Notes under the pieces: model-generated
Seen by the model: only the letters and a program-made list of their open reading frames with translations
Told to the model about the DNA's origin: nothing
Database searches by the model: none
Made by a program: the position numbers and the translations under genes
IMG/VR virus record: IMGVR_UViG_3300028393_000371
Location: 1-22,017 of that record
DNA length: 22,017 nucleotides
Strand: one strand, 5' to 3'
Source of the DNA: a virus
In this document: in pieces, positions 16,309-22,017 of the stretch
Layout of the letters: each line of letters begins with the position of its first letter
Position numbering within the stretch: position 1 is the stretch's first letter

Positions 16309-16737
16309 ATGTCTTGGCTTTATGAAAATCAAACTATCGAAGTATTACCAGAAGACTGTATTGGGTTCGTTTACTTAATTACAAATACACTTTCTGGCCG
16401 GAAATATGTAGGAAAAAAATTAGCAAAATTTAGTAAAACAACATATAAAGTAGTAAAACTTAAAAACGGTAAAAAGAAACGCAAGAAAATCAAAAGTAAA
16501 ATAGATTCAGACTGGCAACAATATTATGGCAGCAATATAGAGTTAAACAAAGACATCAAACAACTAGGCAGCGAAAATTTTACAAGAGAAATATTATACT
16601 ACTGTAGGTCCAAGGCTGAATGTAGTTATATTGAAGCTCGTGAGCAATTTAATAGAAAAGTACTAGAAACTAAAGACTATTATAACGGACATATACAAGT
16701 TCGTGTACATGGTAGTCATATAATCAACAAAATTTAA
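16309..16737 (+). CDS. GIY-YIG family endonuclease, free-standing
   Basis: A 142-residue protein with the core of a GIY-YIG nuclease: GFVYLI (19-24) in place of GIY and KYVGKK (32-37) in place of YIG, followed by a Lys-rich insert (~43-66), DSDWQQYYGSN, and a candidate metal-binding Glu in SYIEAREQF near residue 110. Similar small proteins are common in T4-like phages and are usually annotated as putative endonucleases; whether they home, degrade host DNA or act in repair is not known. The gene lies 43 bases after gp46 on the same strand, without a clear ribosome site, and is the last plus-strand gene before the non-coding region. No DNA-binding C-terminal module is present. Confidence 0.75.
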   Translation: MSWLYENQTIEVLPEDCIGFVYLITNTLSGRKYVGKKLAKFSKTTYKVVKLKNGKKKRKKIKSKIDSDWQQYYGSNIELNKDIKQLGSENFTREILYYCRSKAECSYIEAREQFNRKVLETKDYYNGHIQVRVHGSHIINKI

Positions 16738-17111
16738 TCATCATTGTAAGGCATCATTAAGACAATGTTTGGTCGAGGTAGCTCGACTCGCAAGGAGGAA
16801 CGGTGAGATACCCGGTCTGGATGAGCTTGTGTGTCAAAGGCAAATGCTAACTTAAGGCATCAAATGGTTTGGGCAACGTGAAACAGATACGACCCATGCT
16901 TATAGGACTTGGATTTATTATTGGGTCACTAGGGTTCCGTTGATATGTGAAGCTAGAGTAAGGGGTACCGGTCAACCGCCTCTGCGTCGTAAGACAATCT
17001 CTTTATAATAAATGACTGTGCAACTCAGATGAAGTTTGTAACAATCATGTTTGCCGTTTATACGGTGAATTGTGACCGATTAATCTAGATGAAGTATTCA
17101 AAAACAAAAAT
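16738..17111. ncRNA. Candidate structured RNA in the convergent intergenic region (unidentified)
   Basis: No open frame worth calling exists between the converging genes at 16737 and 17162, yet the region is less AT-rich than its neighbours and dense in possible hairpins. Plus-strand examples: CATTGT/ACAATG around a 14-base loop (from 16742); GTCGAG-GTAG-CTCGAC near 16773-16788; TGGG..CGT/ACG..CCCA near 16868-16896; alternatively GACCCA/TGGGTC; GTC-GTAA-GAC (GNRA loop) near 16986-16995; and GTAACAAT..CCGT-TTAT-ACGG..ATTGTGAC near 17038-17078. AAGGCATCA (16748, 16854) and AGATGAAGT (17028, 17086) are each repeated. The pattern suggests an RNA gene, but the strand is undecided and no known family could be matched: it is not a tRNA, tmRNA or complete riboswitch that I recognise. 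Confidence 0.4.
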
Positions 17112-17154
17112 AAGACGAGCTGTTAAGCGAGTCTTAGATTAGCTACGCTAATCT
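17100..17154 (-). terminator. Terminator for the gp26 operon
   Basis: Eight bases after the last minus-strand stop codon, the minus strand forms two adjacent hairpins: AGATTAGC/GCTAATCT with a three-base loop, then AAGAC-GC/GC-GTCTT with tandem G-A mismatches and a six-base loop, followed by ATTTTTGTTTTTG. The second hairpin plus T-tract is a convincing rho-independent terminator. On the plus strand only TTTC follows, so it is a poor terminator in that direction. Confidence 0.75.
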
Positions 17155-17161
17155 TTCAATG

Positions 17162-17374
17162 TTAGAAGAACGGCATGCCCGACTTCTTAGTTGTTTCCAT
17201 ATTGTCTTTAATAATTTGTCCAATAAGTCTTCGTTCTGAAATACTTAAATGTAATGCTTGGTCGTAGAGTAATCCACCACGCATATACCAAGACATTCGT
17301 AACGCCTCTGCTCTAATCTCGTTTATTTCTTCATCCATGCCGTCAACATATTTGGCGACACCGTCAGAGTCCAA
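17162..17374 (-). CDS. gp51-like tail assembly protein, probably made as a -1 frameshift extension of gp26
   Basis: A 70-codon open frame whose product (IRAEALRMSWYMRGGLLYDQ, ISERRLIGQIIKDNMETTKK, ending GMPFF) resembles the small protein encoded after gp26 in T4-like phages, in the position of the hub-assembly factor gp51. Its only start near the beginning is TTG at 17374, with no ribosome site; the first ATG would lose 12 residues. The frame is -1 relative to gp26, open from 17424 on, and passes through a slippery TTTTTTC at the gp26 end. Frameshifting there would add six residues (RARLLT) and then this frame, giving a 351-residue gp26 fusion. Independent TTG initiation remains possible. 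A tail-chaperone role is inferred from its location beside gp26 and the tape measure genes. Confidence 0.7.
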   Translation of the reverse strand: MDSDGVAKYVDGMDEEINEIRAEALRMSWYMRGGLLYDQALHLSISERRLIGQIIKDNMETTKKSGMPFF

Positions 17375-17376
17375 GG

Positions 17377-18216
17377 TTAGGAGGCGGGCCCGAAAAAACT
17401 TGTCATATCCAATGTAATATTTTGTTTATATTCATTTTCACATTGCCCACATTTGATATTAACAGGCTGCATTTCTGCTTGAGTTTTGTGCCCAATTACA
17501 TATTCTTGAATACGATTAAACAGTCCACGGTCGCAGTTTTTCATAAATTCAGAAATATACTCAGGTTCACTTACCATAGCTTGTGGAGTCTTAATTGTAA
17601 GTATACTTTGCGACAACGCCATAACTGTCATTTCAGTCATCTTTTTAAGGGCTTGTGACATAGCAGCAATTTGCTGTGTGTCTACATTACCGTCAGTTGG
17701 TATAGACTGAAAAATTCGTTGTTCATCAAATTGTATTTTATTATTATCTGACAAATTTTTATAAGTCATTGGTTTAAAATAAATTTCAATATCACCTTGT
17801 TTAATAGCTTCGCTGTAATCAGGAGATTTAATTTTATCAATAACTGAACGCAAATCAACAGCATAATCATCGGTGGTATTACATTTTGGACATTGGGTAG
17901 CAAACTCCATGTCGTGTCCGTAACTGGCAATGCGAATAGCTACTAAAATAGTATCAATATCGATAGAAGGGATAGCCCACGCATCTTTGATGTTTGGTAC
18001 ACAACTTTGAATAACATTGATAACAGCTTGTCCACTGAACAATGCATCTGGTGTGCGATAAGTGATTTCATCGATGGCAGTCATGGGTAAAACCGGCAAT
18101 TCCCCATTTTGGGGCATTTCCAATGCGCCAGGTGGGTAATAATTACCTTGGCTAGGCAATTTAATATAAATTGCCGGTTGTCTAAAATATTGGCTTAACG
18201 GGTTGTTCGAAATCAT
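17377..18216 (-). CDS. 26: Baseplate hub assembly protein gp26
   Basis: T4 gp26 is required for hub assembly and is thought to correspond to tape measure chaperones of other myophages. This 279-residue protein has the typical N-terminal block (YFRQPAIYIKLPSQGNYYPP, then LPVLPMTAIDEITYRTPDAL and FSGQAVINVIQSCVPNIKDA), as in T4-like gp26 (T4_baseplate family). It also carries a probable zinc ribbon, with C109/C112 (CPKC) and C256/C259 (CGQC). The ATG has AAGGA seven bases upstream. The gene is divergent from the tape measure gene, with only 27 bases between the two starts. Its last codons, TTT TTC GGG CCC GCC TCC TAA, hold a slippery heptamer five codons before the stop. Confidence 0.85.
   Translation of the reverse strand: MISNNPLSQYFRQPAIYIKLPSQGNYYPPGALEMPQNGELPVLPMTAIDEITYRTPDALFSGQAVINVIQSCVPNIKDAWAIPSIDIDTILVAIRIASYGHDMEFATQCPKCNTTDDYAVDLRSVIDKIKSPDYSEAIKQGDIEIYFKPMTYKNLSDNNKIQFDEQRIFQSIPTDGNVDTQQIAAMSQALKKMTEMTVMALSQSILTIKTPQAMVSEPEYISEFMKNCDRGLFNRIQEYVIGHKTQAEMQPVNIKCGQCENEYKQNITLDMTSFFGPAS
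17392..17398 (-). other. Predicted -1 ribosomal frameshift site, T TTT TTC
   Basis: In the gp26 frame the heptamer reads T TTT TTC, the X XXY YYZ pattern at which both tRNAs can re-pair after slipping back one base. The -1 frame is open here and continues into the gp51-like frame, with stop codons in that frame only further upstream (last at about 17424-17426). No clear stimulatory hairpin or pseudoknot was found by eye; a GC-rich CGGGCCCG lies right after the site. Confidence 0.7.
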
Positions 18217-18229
18217 GTATTTTTCCTTG

Positions 18230-18237
18230 TATAAATA
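18230..18237 (+). promoter_or_regulatory. T4-type late promoter for the first tape measure gene
   Basis: An exact TATAAATA lies six bases before the ATG at 18244. With the usual T4 spacing transcription would begin at about 18243-18244, producing a leaderless message. No purine-rich ribosome site exists between the element and the start codon. Confidence 0.7.
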
Positions 18238-18243
18238 TTAATT

Positions 18244-20517
18244 ATGGCAGATCAACTCGACCCAAAAGATATTCAAGACATTGTCGACACTTATACTGAG
18301 CACTTAGCCCAAGGTATTCCAATTTCTGAAGAACTTGCTCAAAAAATGAAAGATGCTTCTACGGGCATCAAAGATTATACTAAAAATTTAAAAGCCAGCA
18401 AAGAAGCTTTGATGGGCAGTTTGAAATCCCTTGGTATGTCCATGGTCAATGGCGAATCTGGGGCCGCAGTTTACAACAATGCTATTAATGCTGGTGCTAA
18501 AACTTTTAGTAGTTGGGCAAAGAAAATTCCTATTGTTGGTAATGCTCTAGGTAAGGTAGCAGAAGCAGCAGCCACTTATGAAAATGCTGTTGCTGAACAA
18601 GCAGATGCATTATTTAAAAGTTATCAAGACATAAGTCGTTCTGGTATTGCTACCGGAATGCAAGATGCGTTTAAAAATTTACAAGACGCTGGATATACAA
18701 TGAAAGAAATTGGCCAATACGGTCAATTAATGAAAGAAAATTCTGCAGTACTTGCGACCATGGGTGGCACCACTGCTCAAGGAGCAGCAGAGTTTGCTAA
18801 AGTATCAAAAAACATTAAAAATTCTCAATTAGAAACACAGTTCATGCGTATGGGTATGACTGTTAATGATATCAACAGTGGTATAGCAAACTATGTAAAA
18901 ATACAGCAATTAAGTGGGTCAACATTACAACAAAATGACAAACAAATTGCAGCCAGTGCCGCTGAATATATTTTAGAACAAGATAAAGTAACTAAAGTAA
19001 CAGGCCTTACAGCTGATCAACAAAATAAAATTTATGAAGGCGCTCTAGCTCAGGAACAATTTGCGGCTAAAACATTTCAATTACAGCAAGCGGCGGCAGC
19101 AGGTGACGAACAAGCAAAAGCTGAACTATCAAGAAATAGACAGTTAGTTGAATTTGCCATGGCCAAAGGCGGGCCCGAAGCAGCTAAACAAGCTCAGCTA
19201 TACATAGCTGGAGCTGTCAATACAAAAGGTTATCAACAATTCCAAAGAAGTTTTGCTCAAACTGCCGACTACATAGATAAAGGCGGCACCGATGTAGGTA
19301 AAGCACAAAATTTATTAGTTAATGATGCTAAAGTGTTAGTCAAAGATCAAGCAAGATTAGGTCAATTTGGAGCATTCAATACCACATACACTCCAATACA
19401 AGAAGCAGGAAAATTAGCGGCAGCTTCGGTAAAAGATTATGCCGTAGCTAATAAAGATGCCGCTGAGCAACAGCAAAAACAAATAAAAGCTACCGACGAA
19501 GCTACTGGCGCCATGGTTGATACGACTATGGATCAACGGGACATAACTCAATCGGCTGATCATGTAATTAACAAAGGTGTCCCAGCAGTTACTAAAGGAT
19601 TATCTGGATTATCTAGTGTCACACAACAATTAACCAGTGTGTTTGGACAGTTAGCTGGCAAACAAGGACAAATTGGTGGAGGTACAACACTACTGAATAA
19701 AATTGGTATAGGCGGAGCAGCTGCTCCGTCCGCAGCAGGTGGAGCGGCAGCAGGTGGAGCGGCAGCAGGTGGAGCGGCAGCAGGCGGAGCGGCAGCAGGC
19801 GGAGCGGCAGCAGGCGGAGCGGCAGCAGGCGGAGCGGCAGCAGGCGGAGCGGCAGCAGGCGGACCATCGGGCGTAGCAACTCCACCAGTGGTTACACCAA
19901 TTACTCCACCTGCTGGAAAAGAAGGAGCGGCCAATGTAGATGCCCTTATAAAGTTTACTGGTGGCACAGGAGACAAAACGCATTTTCAACAATTAAATCC
20001 TTCGGTATTGAATAGTTTTGTTCAGATGGCTAGTGCTTATTTTAATAGTACCGGCAAAAAATTACAAGTTAATTCAGCTTTTAGATCGGTGGAAGAACAA
20101 GCTAATGTTAATTCTGGGACTAATCCCAAAGCTGCTCCTGGAAAAAGTTTACATAATTTAGGTAAAGCAGTGGATATTAATTCAAGCCAAGTTTCTGAAT
20201 TACAATCCTCGGGATTGTTGGGTCAGCATGGTTTTAGTCCACTAGCAAACGATCCACCGCATATACAAATGCCCTCCGCAGCATCGGGTGGAATACTAAG
20301 TGGTCCAAAAAGCGGCTATCAAGCTATGCTTCATGGCAACGAAGCGGTAGTGCCATTACCCGACGGTAAAACAATACCAGTACAAAACAGCGGTGGCAGT
20401 GGATCGTCGGAACAAACTAATTTGCTTGCTATGGAATTAGGAAAATTAGAATCATTGCTTGGAGTTATGCAAAAGCAAAACGATATTACCAACAAAATAT
20501 TAGCAAAACAAAGTTAA
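18244..20517 (+). CDS. Tape measure-like tail protein with M15-type peptidase domain
   Basis: A 757-residue, mostly helical protein with very Ala/Gln/Lys-rich residues ~1-470, then a Gly/Ala linker (~495-540), a peptidase-like domain (~565-680) and the C-terminal motif [34 protein letters not shown], which is characteristic of tape measure proteins. The domain shows VNSAFRS (R614), [11 protein letters not shown] (H637, D644) and DPPH (D670, H673), the arginine, H-x6-D and [DE]-x-x-H pattern of zinc peptidases of the M15 (VanY/DD-carboxypeptidase) group. It would set tail length and help cut peptidoglycan during DNA entry; the substrate bond cannot be told. The start is fixed by alignment to the paralogue downstream. 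It is next to gp26, its likely chaperone. The position could correspond to T4 gp29. Confidence 0.8.
19732..19862 (+). repeat. 15-bp tandem repeat encoding a GGAAA linker
   Basis: Eight exact copies of GGAGCGGCAGCAGGY occupy 19741-19860, preceded by a partial copy. The first copies end in T, the last six in C, so the later copies have been homogenised by recent expansion. The unit is five codons, and the array encodes a (GGAAA)n hinge between the helical region and the peptidase domain of the tape measure protein. Confidence 0.95.
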
Positions 20518-20527
20518 GGCATAACAC

Positions 20528-22017
20528 ATGGCAAAATTTAGTCTAGATGAAGCAACATCAATTGTTGATGAATACAATAGAAAATTAAATGCAAATGAAC
20601 CTATTTCTGACGATTTAGCCAAGGCTATGAAAGATGCCTCGACAGGCATTAAAAATTATACTGATAATTTAAAAGCTAGTATTGATCAGTTAAAAGACAC
20701 AACATTAAAAATGGGCAAGTCCTTAGTCCAGGGCGAATCTGGACTTAGTGTTTACAATGATACAGTAGAAGCTGGCGGTCAAGCCATGGGTGCGTGGGCT
20801 GAAAAAATTCCTATTGTAGGTGGAGCACTAAGCAAAGCCGCTAAAGCAGCAGCTAAAGCCATTGTATTAATTAACAAACAAGCTGATACTTTATTTCAAA
20901 ATTATCAAGATATAAGTCGTTCTGGTTTAGTTACTGGAATGGGAGACACATTTAAAAATTTACAATCGGCTGGATATACTGTAGCTGAAATTAAAGAGTA
21001 TGGCACTTTAATGAAACAAAATGCCACTACTTTAGCAACATTTGGTGGCACAGCAGCACAAGGTGCTAAAACATTTGCTGAAGTTGCTGAGTCAATACAA
21101 AAATCAGATTTGCAAACTAATTTTATGAACATGGGCATGACTGTTGGGGATATTAACAGTGGTGTTGCTAATTATATAAAAATTCAACAGTTAAGTGGTT
21201 CCACTAGGTCAGAATCTAATACAGAATTAAAAGAAAGCGCACAAGAATTTATAATGCAACAGGACAGGTTAACAAAACTAACCGGTTTAAATGCTGAGCA
21301 ACAAAATAAAGTAATGGAACATGCTTTAGCAATGGAGCAATTCAATGCTAAAACACAAGAACTACAGCAAAAAGCAGATGCCGGTGACGAGTCTGCCAAA
21401 GCAGAAATAGCTCGTAATAAAGAAATTCTTGCGTTTACAGCATCTAAGTTTGGCCAAGCTACAGCAGATGACGCAGCACAATTTTTGGCAGGAGCAGTTA
21501 ATAGCCCTGGATATCAAAGATTTCAAAGGGCATTACCGGAAGCCGCTAAATCAATAACTAACGGTGTAAAAAATGCCGGAGTAATCCAACAACAATTAGT
21601 AGAAGGAGCCAAAAAAACTGCAACTGAACAATCAACACTTGGTACAGTAGGTCAGTTTAGTAAAACTTTTGGTAATATGGCTGAATTTGTAAAAGCTGCT
21701 AGTTCTTCGGTTAATAAAGTGACTAAATCTAACGCTGTTATTACTAAACAAACAGAAGATCAAATAAAAGCTGTAGATGGTTCGGTTGGTAGTAGTGTTA
21801 AGTTAAGACAAAATCAAAGAGACACAACACAATCATTAGATAAGTTGACTAATGTAGGCGTTACTCCTGTAGCTAAAACTTTTTCTGCGTTGACTCGTGT
21901 AGCACAACAGTTAGCCAGTGTTGGCGGGCAAATGGCTGGTAAAGAAGGACAAATGGGTGGCGGAACTACTTTAGCAAATAAAGTTGGAATAGGAACACCA
22001 CCTAGTGCCGCAGCGCC
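20528..22017 (+). CDS. Second tape measure-like protein, paralogue of the preceding gene (truncated by window)
   Basis: The frame is open from ATG 20528 to the window end (496 codons). It aligns to the upstream protein over its whole visible length without large gaps, at roughly half identical residues by eye. Shared blocks include [45 protein letters not shown] and KIQQLSGST, and it ends where the first gene enters its Gly/Ala linker (GGGTTLANKVGIG). So it is a tandem duplicate of a tape measure-like gene. It starts ten bases after the first stop, with AAGG eight bases upstream, so both are on one message. Whether it carries a peptidase domain and the tape measure C-terminal motif lies beyond the window. 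Confidence 0.85.
   Translation, partial: MAKFSLDEATSIVDEYNRKLNANEPISDDLAKAMKDASTGIKNYTDNLKASIDQLKDTTLKMGKSLVQGESGLSVYNDTVEAGGQAMGAWAEKIPIVGGALSKAAKAAAKAIVLINKQADTLFQNYQDISRSGLVTGMGDTFKNLQSAGYTVAEIKEYGTLMKQNATTLATFGGTAAQGAKTFAEVAESIQKSDLQTNFMNMGMTVGDINSGVANYIKIQQLSGSTRSESNTELKESAQEFIMQQDRLTKLTGLNAEQQNKVMEHALAMEQFNAKTQELQQKADAGDESAKAEIARNKEILAFTASKFGQATADDAAQFLAGAVNSPGYQRFQRALPEAAKSITNGVKNAGVIQQQLVEGAKKTATEQSTLGTVGQFSKTFGNMAEFVKAASSSVNKVTKSNAVITKQTEDQIKAVDGSVGSSVKLRQNQRDTTQSLDKLTNVGVTPVAKTFSALTRVAQQLASVGGQMAGKEGQMGGGTTLANKVGIGTPPSAAA

Follow-up and report, generated by a model that had tools for sequence, protein, structure and literature searches.

Phage lambda G/GT and phage P2 E/E' are tail genes that are expressed with a ribosomal frameshift. 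In the excerpts available of a T4 review, gp26 and gp51 are described as chaperones of hub assembly whose mode of action is unclear (PMC3004832), and the idea that they form a tail assembly chaperone pair has been published by Vladimirov et al. (2022), as reported by papers that cite them. Excerpts of the PRFect paper cite that work for T4-like phages that have a short gene and a long fusion gene and no frameshift (PMC10885494), and excerpts of the Adele paper cite it for poly-T signals known in the short-form genes of T4-like phages (PMC12846349). Since poly-T signals have already been reported in T4-like phages, the frameshift site described here belongs to a known kind, of which it is a real and well-supported case.

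The DNA that we analyzed is a 22,017-nucleotide stretch of virus sequence (IMG/VR record IMGVR_UViG_3300028393_000371), referred to here as the window. We conclude that its gp26 homologue is very probably made with a -1 programmed ribosomal frameshift and that the two products are most likely the short and long forms of the tail assembly chaperone of a T4-like contractile phage.

The end of gp26 and the open -1 frame

The gp26 gene of the window (Table 1) starts at an ATG with AAGGA upstream, and its 3' end reads TTG GAT ATG ACA AGT TTT TTC GGG CCC GCC TCC TAA. The first-pass annotation had placed a T TTT TTC in the gp26 frame five codons before the stop, and the minus-strand ORF confirmed this: the heptamer stands in the X_XXY_YYZ phase ahead of the zero-frame stop, TAA is the fifth codon after TTC, and the short form ends in GPAS. 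A sequencing error as the origin of the heptamer was ruled out, because many different contigs and isolates have the same heptamer.

On the minus strand, the open stretch of the -1 frame extends from 17425 to 17165. Read from the slip onward, it encodes RARLLTLDSDG...KKSGMPFF, 76 codons in all, which together with 275 gp26 residues would therefore give a fusion of 351 residues; the open frame and the fusion had been claimed with the right coordinates and counts, as translation of the window showed. A listed 70-codon ORF that begins with TTG (17162-17374) is this same frame. In seven minus-strand genes of the window, the alternative frames hold 6806 overlapping stretches of 76 codons, and none of these was open, so that the open -1 frame is longer than chance would leave it. 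A scan of positions 16700-18400 for promoters and terminators found no more than were found in shuffles, and a DNA search of an annotated phage collection with positions 16900-18260 gave no match.

Table 1. Positions of the features discussed, numbered from the first letter of the window
Feature	Position	Strand	Basis or remark
SegE GIY-YIG homing endonuclease family ORF, 142 aa	16309-16737	(+)	PF19835, E 1.2e-31
Conserved 424-nt noncoding stretch	16738-17161, core 16795-17092		DNA matches in relatives
-1 frame domain, 76 codons, gp51-like position, read after slip	17165..17392	(-)	Stop 17164-17162; all-helical model
3' arm GAGGCG of proposed stimulatory stem	17303..17308	(-)	Glu-Ala codons 29-30 of -1 frame
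Zero-frame stop TAA of gp26	17377..17379	(-)	Sequence
gp26 homologue, short form, 279 aa	17377..18216	(-)	PF12322 T4_baseplate, phrog_150 baseplate hub
5' arm CGCCTC of proposed stimulatory stem	17381..17386	(-)	5 nt after heptamer
Slippery heptamer T TTT TTC, gp26 frame	17392..17398	(-)	Sequence and synonymous constraint
Divergent neighbor, 757 aa, tape-measure-like	18244..20517	(+)	Position and weak similarity; family matches endolysin/VanY-type
Next ORF, cut by window end	20528..22015	(+)	Weak tape measure match, phrog_10613, E 5.3e-4

Beyond the end of the -1 frame lies a conserved noncoding stretch. DNA matches to it, of varying length and 74-100% identity, were found in 29 loci, and its core is 78-85% identical as DNA in five loci (L028, L031, L032, L033 and L037) whose gp26 is ~60% identical as protein. 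An alignment of 14 sequences gave 65 consensus pairs, 15 of them with compensatory changes; the window copy alone folds no better than shuffles (z -0.88), and Rfam searches of the whole window and of 16650-17250 gave no match. The SegE-like ORF adjoins this stretch and occurs in at least 11 of the loci compared. In our reading, a structured RNA of about 300 nt that has escaped annotation probably lies here, next to the homing-endonuclease-like gene.

Conservation of the heptamer and selection on the -1 frame

A scan of IMG/VR with the window's gp26 yielded 42 loci, of which 40 reach the site (L039 and L043 end before the heptamer and were left out); with the window itself these make a window clade of 41 sequences, one of which (L002) has a gp26 identical to the window's and may be the same virus. 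TTTTTTC is present in phase in all 41. In 39 of them the -1 frame can be followed to its natural stop, L019 and L029 ending before it. Counted from the first T, the gp26 stop comes after 19 nt in most loci and after 10 nt in L040 and L041. A second set, called cyanophage-type here, was collected with Synechococcus phage Sf-FS3 as the query; in the best 80 of its 591 confirmed loci, TTTTTTC stands 10 nt before the gp26 stop without exception. Two further scans gave four loci, all with the heptamer, two of them being the query phages 121Q and Atu_ph07.

Annotated phages extend the range. Nineteen of 24 records (chosen for spread, plus T4) carry the site, 17 of them as TTTTTTC, Xanthomonas phage XacN1 as TTTTTTT and Rhizobium phage RL38J1 as TTTTTTG. 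Besides these two, the carriers are Agrobacterium Atu_ph07, Sinorhizobium Phosso, Pseudomonas PAC2, Escherichia 121Q, Klebsiella RaK2, Salmonella PHA46, Erwinia phages 47 and Kaldavass, Xanthomonas XaC1 and XbC2, Salicola SCTP-2, Vibrio 2.275.O, Cronobacter GAP32, Pectobacterium CBB, Synechococcus Sf-FS3, Rhizobium IC12 and Aeromonas phiAS5. The five records without it are T4, RB32, Shigella phage 006, Pseudomonas Cygsa01 and the uncultured phage LR756508. Comparison of the gp26 3' ends of related phages thus came out mostly as the first-pass annotation had predicted, with heptamer and open -1 frame both kept. As a separate observation, LR756508.1 (locus L066) has no such domain in the -1 frame after gp26; a helix-like domain is open in the +1 frame instead, possibly a different recoding or an artefact.

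Conservation of the heptamer extends to synonymous sites. We called a codon column well informed if its informative pairs exceeded half of the highest count in any column. Among 32 distinct window-clade gp26 sequences, the two Phe codons of the heptamer are the only 2 of 164 such columns without a synonymous difference, whereas TTT and TTC are mixed in six other conserved Phe columns; the codon before them encodes S, N or T, yet its third base is T in 32/32. In 63 cyanophage-type sequences the two Phe codons are again the only columns (2 of 160) without synonymous change, and in 14 jumbo-phage isolates they are among 6 of 84. This synonymous constraint rules out that the heptamer is kept by chance or by amino acid conservation alone.

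A run of T residues could also act one step earlier, at transcription. If RNA polymerase slipped on the T6 run, which every site contains, mRNAs with one extra U would result, and one added U also gives the -1 frame. Six T residues are short for transcriptional slippage, however, and a longer run, which would suit the polymerase better, is found only in XacN1 among the sites compared. Furthermore, the C after the run is kept in the 41 window-clade and 80 cyanophage-type sites with the codon phase fixed, and a fixed C and a fixed phase are what tandem tRNA slippage needs; the constrained RNA downstream, at a spacing of 5 nt (see below), likewise fits the ribosome. We therefore consider polymerase slippage highly improbable, and we infer that it is the ribosome that slips.

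The -1 frame past the gp26 stop is under purifying selection in both large groups. Median dN/dS came to 0.155 for the window clade, from 46 of 325 pairs, and to 0.129 for the cyanophage-type group, from 341 of 1275 (pairs were dropped if dS was outside 0.1-1.5 or not computable), and the changes fall mostly at third positions of the -1 frame.

Selection for a protein leaves the question of how its translation begins, and the small frame had been described in the first-pass annotation as lacking both an ATG near its beginning and a ribosome site. This is true of its beginning in the window, where the first -1-frame ATG lies 41 nt past the gp26 stop and the 14 nt before it hold no Shine-Dalgarno-like sequence, but it is not true of some relatives, in which starts exist. 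Nine window-clade loci have a -1-frame ATG or GTG inside gp26, 64 or 73 nt before the stop, L025 and L031 have an ATG and a GTG, respectively, just after the stop, and, among 26 distinct window-clade sequences, 25 have an ATG at -1 codon 19 and 20 have a start-capable codon 33, before which stands GAGG. In the cyanophage-type loci, the fourth -1 codon is ATG in 80/80. The second frame of Sf-FS3 is annotated as a separate baseplate hub assembly catalyst; Cygsa01 has no heptamer, and its small-frame ATG overlaps the gp26 stop. All of this would suit a separate gene, started independently or by translational coupling, beside which the heptamer would be incidental. We judge such a gene to be improbable, given that the heptamer is frozen at synonymous sites and that the RARLL.. 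residues between the slip and the window's first ATG are conserved. In addition, the possible starts in the window clade are scattered from locus to locus, and, among the start contexts of the seven sequences examined, only codon 33 is preceded by a Shine-Dalgarno-like sequence; a start there would halve the -1 domain, and codon 33 is not start-capable in 6/26. A frameshift at the heptamer is the reading that we carry forward.

RNA downstream of the slippery site

In the window clade, the RNA after the heptamer contains a candidate stem, first spotted by eye and tested afterwards. It is GC-rich, has 5 or 6 bp, starts 5 nt past the heptamer and closes a 72-nt region. In 25 of the 26 distinct sequences, -1 codons 3 and 4, which supply the 5' arm, are CGC and CTC (this arm sits where two reading frames overlap), and on the 3' side -1 codon 29 is GAG in 23 of the 25 sequences that have Glu there, as against 97 of 424 Glu codons in gp26. 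The core GCCTC..GAGGC can pair in 22/26 sequences, whereas 2000 synonymous permutations gave 9.6 on average and 17 at most, and among 16 representatives below 80% identity it pairs in 13, a number that none of 5000 permutations reached. When 7660 column pairs were scanned, the proposed helix ranked first, followed by its own shifted versions.

Folding calculations agreed with the pairing counts. The helix has a pair probability of >0.5 in 23/26 sequences, with a mean of 0.87 against 0.35 for permuted sequences, although in 7/26 the permuted versions also form the helix with a mean probability of >0.5. The 100 nt past the heptamer fold better than synonymous permutations in 26/26 sequences (mean z -2.46), whereas ten other windows of gp26 and the -1 frame gave z values between -0.90 and +0.24. 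Some sequences depart from the scheme: L040 is missing CGCCTC and folds a different long stem at the same place, and L032 and L042 also fold otherwise than proposed. With 110 nt, some minimum-energy folds drop the stem, the core pair probability being about 0.8. For the window alone, the downstream fold was not exceptional against dinucleotide shuffles (z -0.97).

An RNAalifold consensus over 99 columns did not return the proposed stem and gave only an inner hairpin of 5 pairs, three of which show compensatory changes. The proposed stem itself shows no compensatory change, and its outermost (sixth) pair forms in 16/25 sequences. Within 50 nt downstream, no local hairpin was seen in the window clade (mean z -0.11), and a Shine-Dalgarno-like stimulator upstream was found in 0/27 of its sequences. 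The GAGG of the 3' arm was considered as a Shine-Dalgarno sequence and set aside: codon 33 is start-capable in only 20/26 sequences, and we therefore prefer the pairing. Thus, the stem is a candidate frameshift stimulator of the window clade on the evidence of synonymous constraint and folding rather than of covariation.

Other groups differ in layout. Most of 27 aligned cyanophage-type sequences have a 7-bp hairpin 8 nt past the heptamer, with nine both-side changes at one pair, more than in any of 500 shuffles, and a consensus GGAGG lies 10 nt before the heptamer; this arrangement of GGAGG upstream and hairpin downstream is known from E. coli dnaX. The jumbo isolates were mixed, 15 of 19 chosen records folding better than permuted sequences over 100 nt (mean z -1.27).

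The mechanism that we propose for the window is as follows. Ribosomes translating gp26 would reach AGT TTT TTC and be held up there by the RNA stem 5 nt downstream, in which CGCCTC would pair with GAGGCG 72 nt further on. A minority, as we envisage the efficiency of the event, would slip back one base, both Phe-tRNAs re-pairing with TTT TTT, and would continue through CGG GCC CGC.. to make the gp26-gp51-like fusion of 351 residues; the remaining ribosomes would stop four codons later, having made 279 residues.

Relation to T4 gp26 and gp51 and the role of the two products

The first-pass annotation had taken gp26 and the gp51-like frame for the T4-type version of a chaperone pair. The family assignment stood: window gp26 matches PF12322 (T4_baseplate) with 57.8 bits against a cut-off of 24.5, and T4 gp26 and T4 gp51 both match the family profile over the whole of its length, gp51 being ~48 residues longer; the two T4 proteins are PF12322 paralogues. 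When 57 cyanophage-type and related fusions were made into a profile, its alignment with T4 gp51 passed through the junction (E 6.5e-12, two-sequence search), and that with T4 gp26 reached as far as the junction. The link from the window's extra domain to T4 gp51 is less direct. The window-clade profile alone gave no significant match to T4 gp26 or T4 gp51, and the window's 76-residue domain gave no significant direct match to T4 gp51 or to the cyanophage-type domains. The window-clade -1 domain did match the jumbo-phage domains (hhalign 99.3%, E 4e-19; tblastn with the window domain, Atu_ph07, E 7e-9), and the cyanophage-type -1 domains aligned with the end of T4 gp51 (E 2.2e-5, probability 51.5%). 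The window domain's tie to T4 gp51 would accordingly run through position and intermediate phages.

The number of family members per genome varies with the site. We counted PF12322 in 24 records comprising 17 phages and 7 window-clade contigs, some possibly incomplete. The family occurs once in 20 of them and twice in T4, RB32 and Shigella phage 006, all without the site; Salicola SCTP-2, which has the site, gave no PF12322 match at E <= 0.001. Of the 20 records with a single member, seven of which are possibly incomplete contigs, 19 carry the site, the exception being Cygsa01. One PF12322 gene with the site, two without it, and the overlapping ATG of Cygsa01 therefore suggest that the same two proteins are obtained by different routes, namely frameshift, gene duplication and perhaps reinitiation. 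The frameshift may be ancestral for the T4-type chaperone pair, from cyanophages to jumbo phages, with T4 having lost it by duplication and the window clade driving it with a long-range stem; we give this history an even chance.

Predicted structures gave little guidance. The model of gp26 (pLDDT 81.8) had no Foldseek match at E <= 0.001 and matched no solved tail assembly chaperone fold; its best VIA match was a serine recombinase (Z 6.0, 55 residues, rmsd 3.4). The model of the -1 domain of the window is all helix (mean pLDDT 85.6), and its fold comparison returned nothing usable, the best Z being 3.2 of 17 chains. A sequence search of solved structures with gp26 and T4 gp51 found nothing relevant.

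Beside gp26 lies the tape-measure-like gene of Table 1, whose protein is weakly similar to a structural protein beside gp26 in 121Q (E 1e-7 in a two-sequence comparison) and shows no similarity to the gp26 neighbor of PAC2. In the annotation of Erwinia phage 47 and RaK2, the counterpart next to gp26 is called a tape measure protein or is said to resemble one. The window protein also has a VanY-type carboxypeptidase domain and a long Gly-Ala repeat.

A frameshift could be real and its products could still serve otherwise, gp26 and the long form being hub components or catalysts of some other role. Excerpts of the T4 review call the hub evidence contradictory and cite support for gp26 in the hub (PMC3004832), and no fold match ties gp26 to known tail assembly chaperones; the tape-measure-like gene, moreover, is divergent instead of lying downstream on the strand of gp26, and the families that it matches are endolysins. 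We nonetheless think a role of that sort unlikely in view of the architecture of a short and a long form with a frameshift at the 3' end, the tape-measure-like neighbor, and the publication of the T4-like genes as such chaperones (Vladimirov et al. 2022, via citing papers). Judged from the literature and the gene position, the two products most likely serve as the tail assembly chaperone pair known for T4-like phages. By analogy with lambda G/GT, the tape measure protein would be held and coated by the short form, and the extra helical domain of the long form would recruit the tube subunit or the baseplate hub.

In the jumbo-phage and cyanophage records examined, the second frame has been omitted, started late, or called hypothetical or a separate gene. 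If the frameshift is real, this frame contributes the second half of a protein essential to assembly in T4. The locus then offers a one-gene system for studying the action of the hub assembly factors gp26 and gp51 of T4, and its candidate long-range stimulator is open to a simple reporter test. What may be new is how widely the site occurs and, more than that, the long-range stem; we know of no stimulator of this shape from phage tail frameshifts, and the titles, abstract openings and excerpts searched contained no mention of it, which does not prove its absence from print.

Compared with lambda G/GT and P2 E/E', the window differs in having its tape-measure-like gene on the other strand. It is like the chaperone locus of the Vandenendeviridae and Andersonviridae, in which a conserved poly-T -1 site ends the short form and the -1 frame is open across the clade; those phages belong to other virus families, their motif is GTTTTT, and the excerpts available of the paper mention no stimulatory stem (PMC12846349). 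In T4 itself, two separate and divergent genes stand in place of the window's one gene with a frameshift, and the heptamer is missing, the Phe codons being TTC TTT. PF12322 is nevertheless shared by window gp26, T4 gp26 and T4 gp51, the T4 short form ends in ..EFFELL where the window slips, and T4 gp51 is colinear with the cyanophage-type fusion across the junction.
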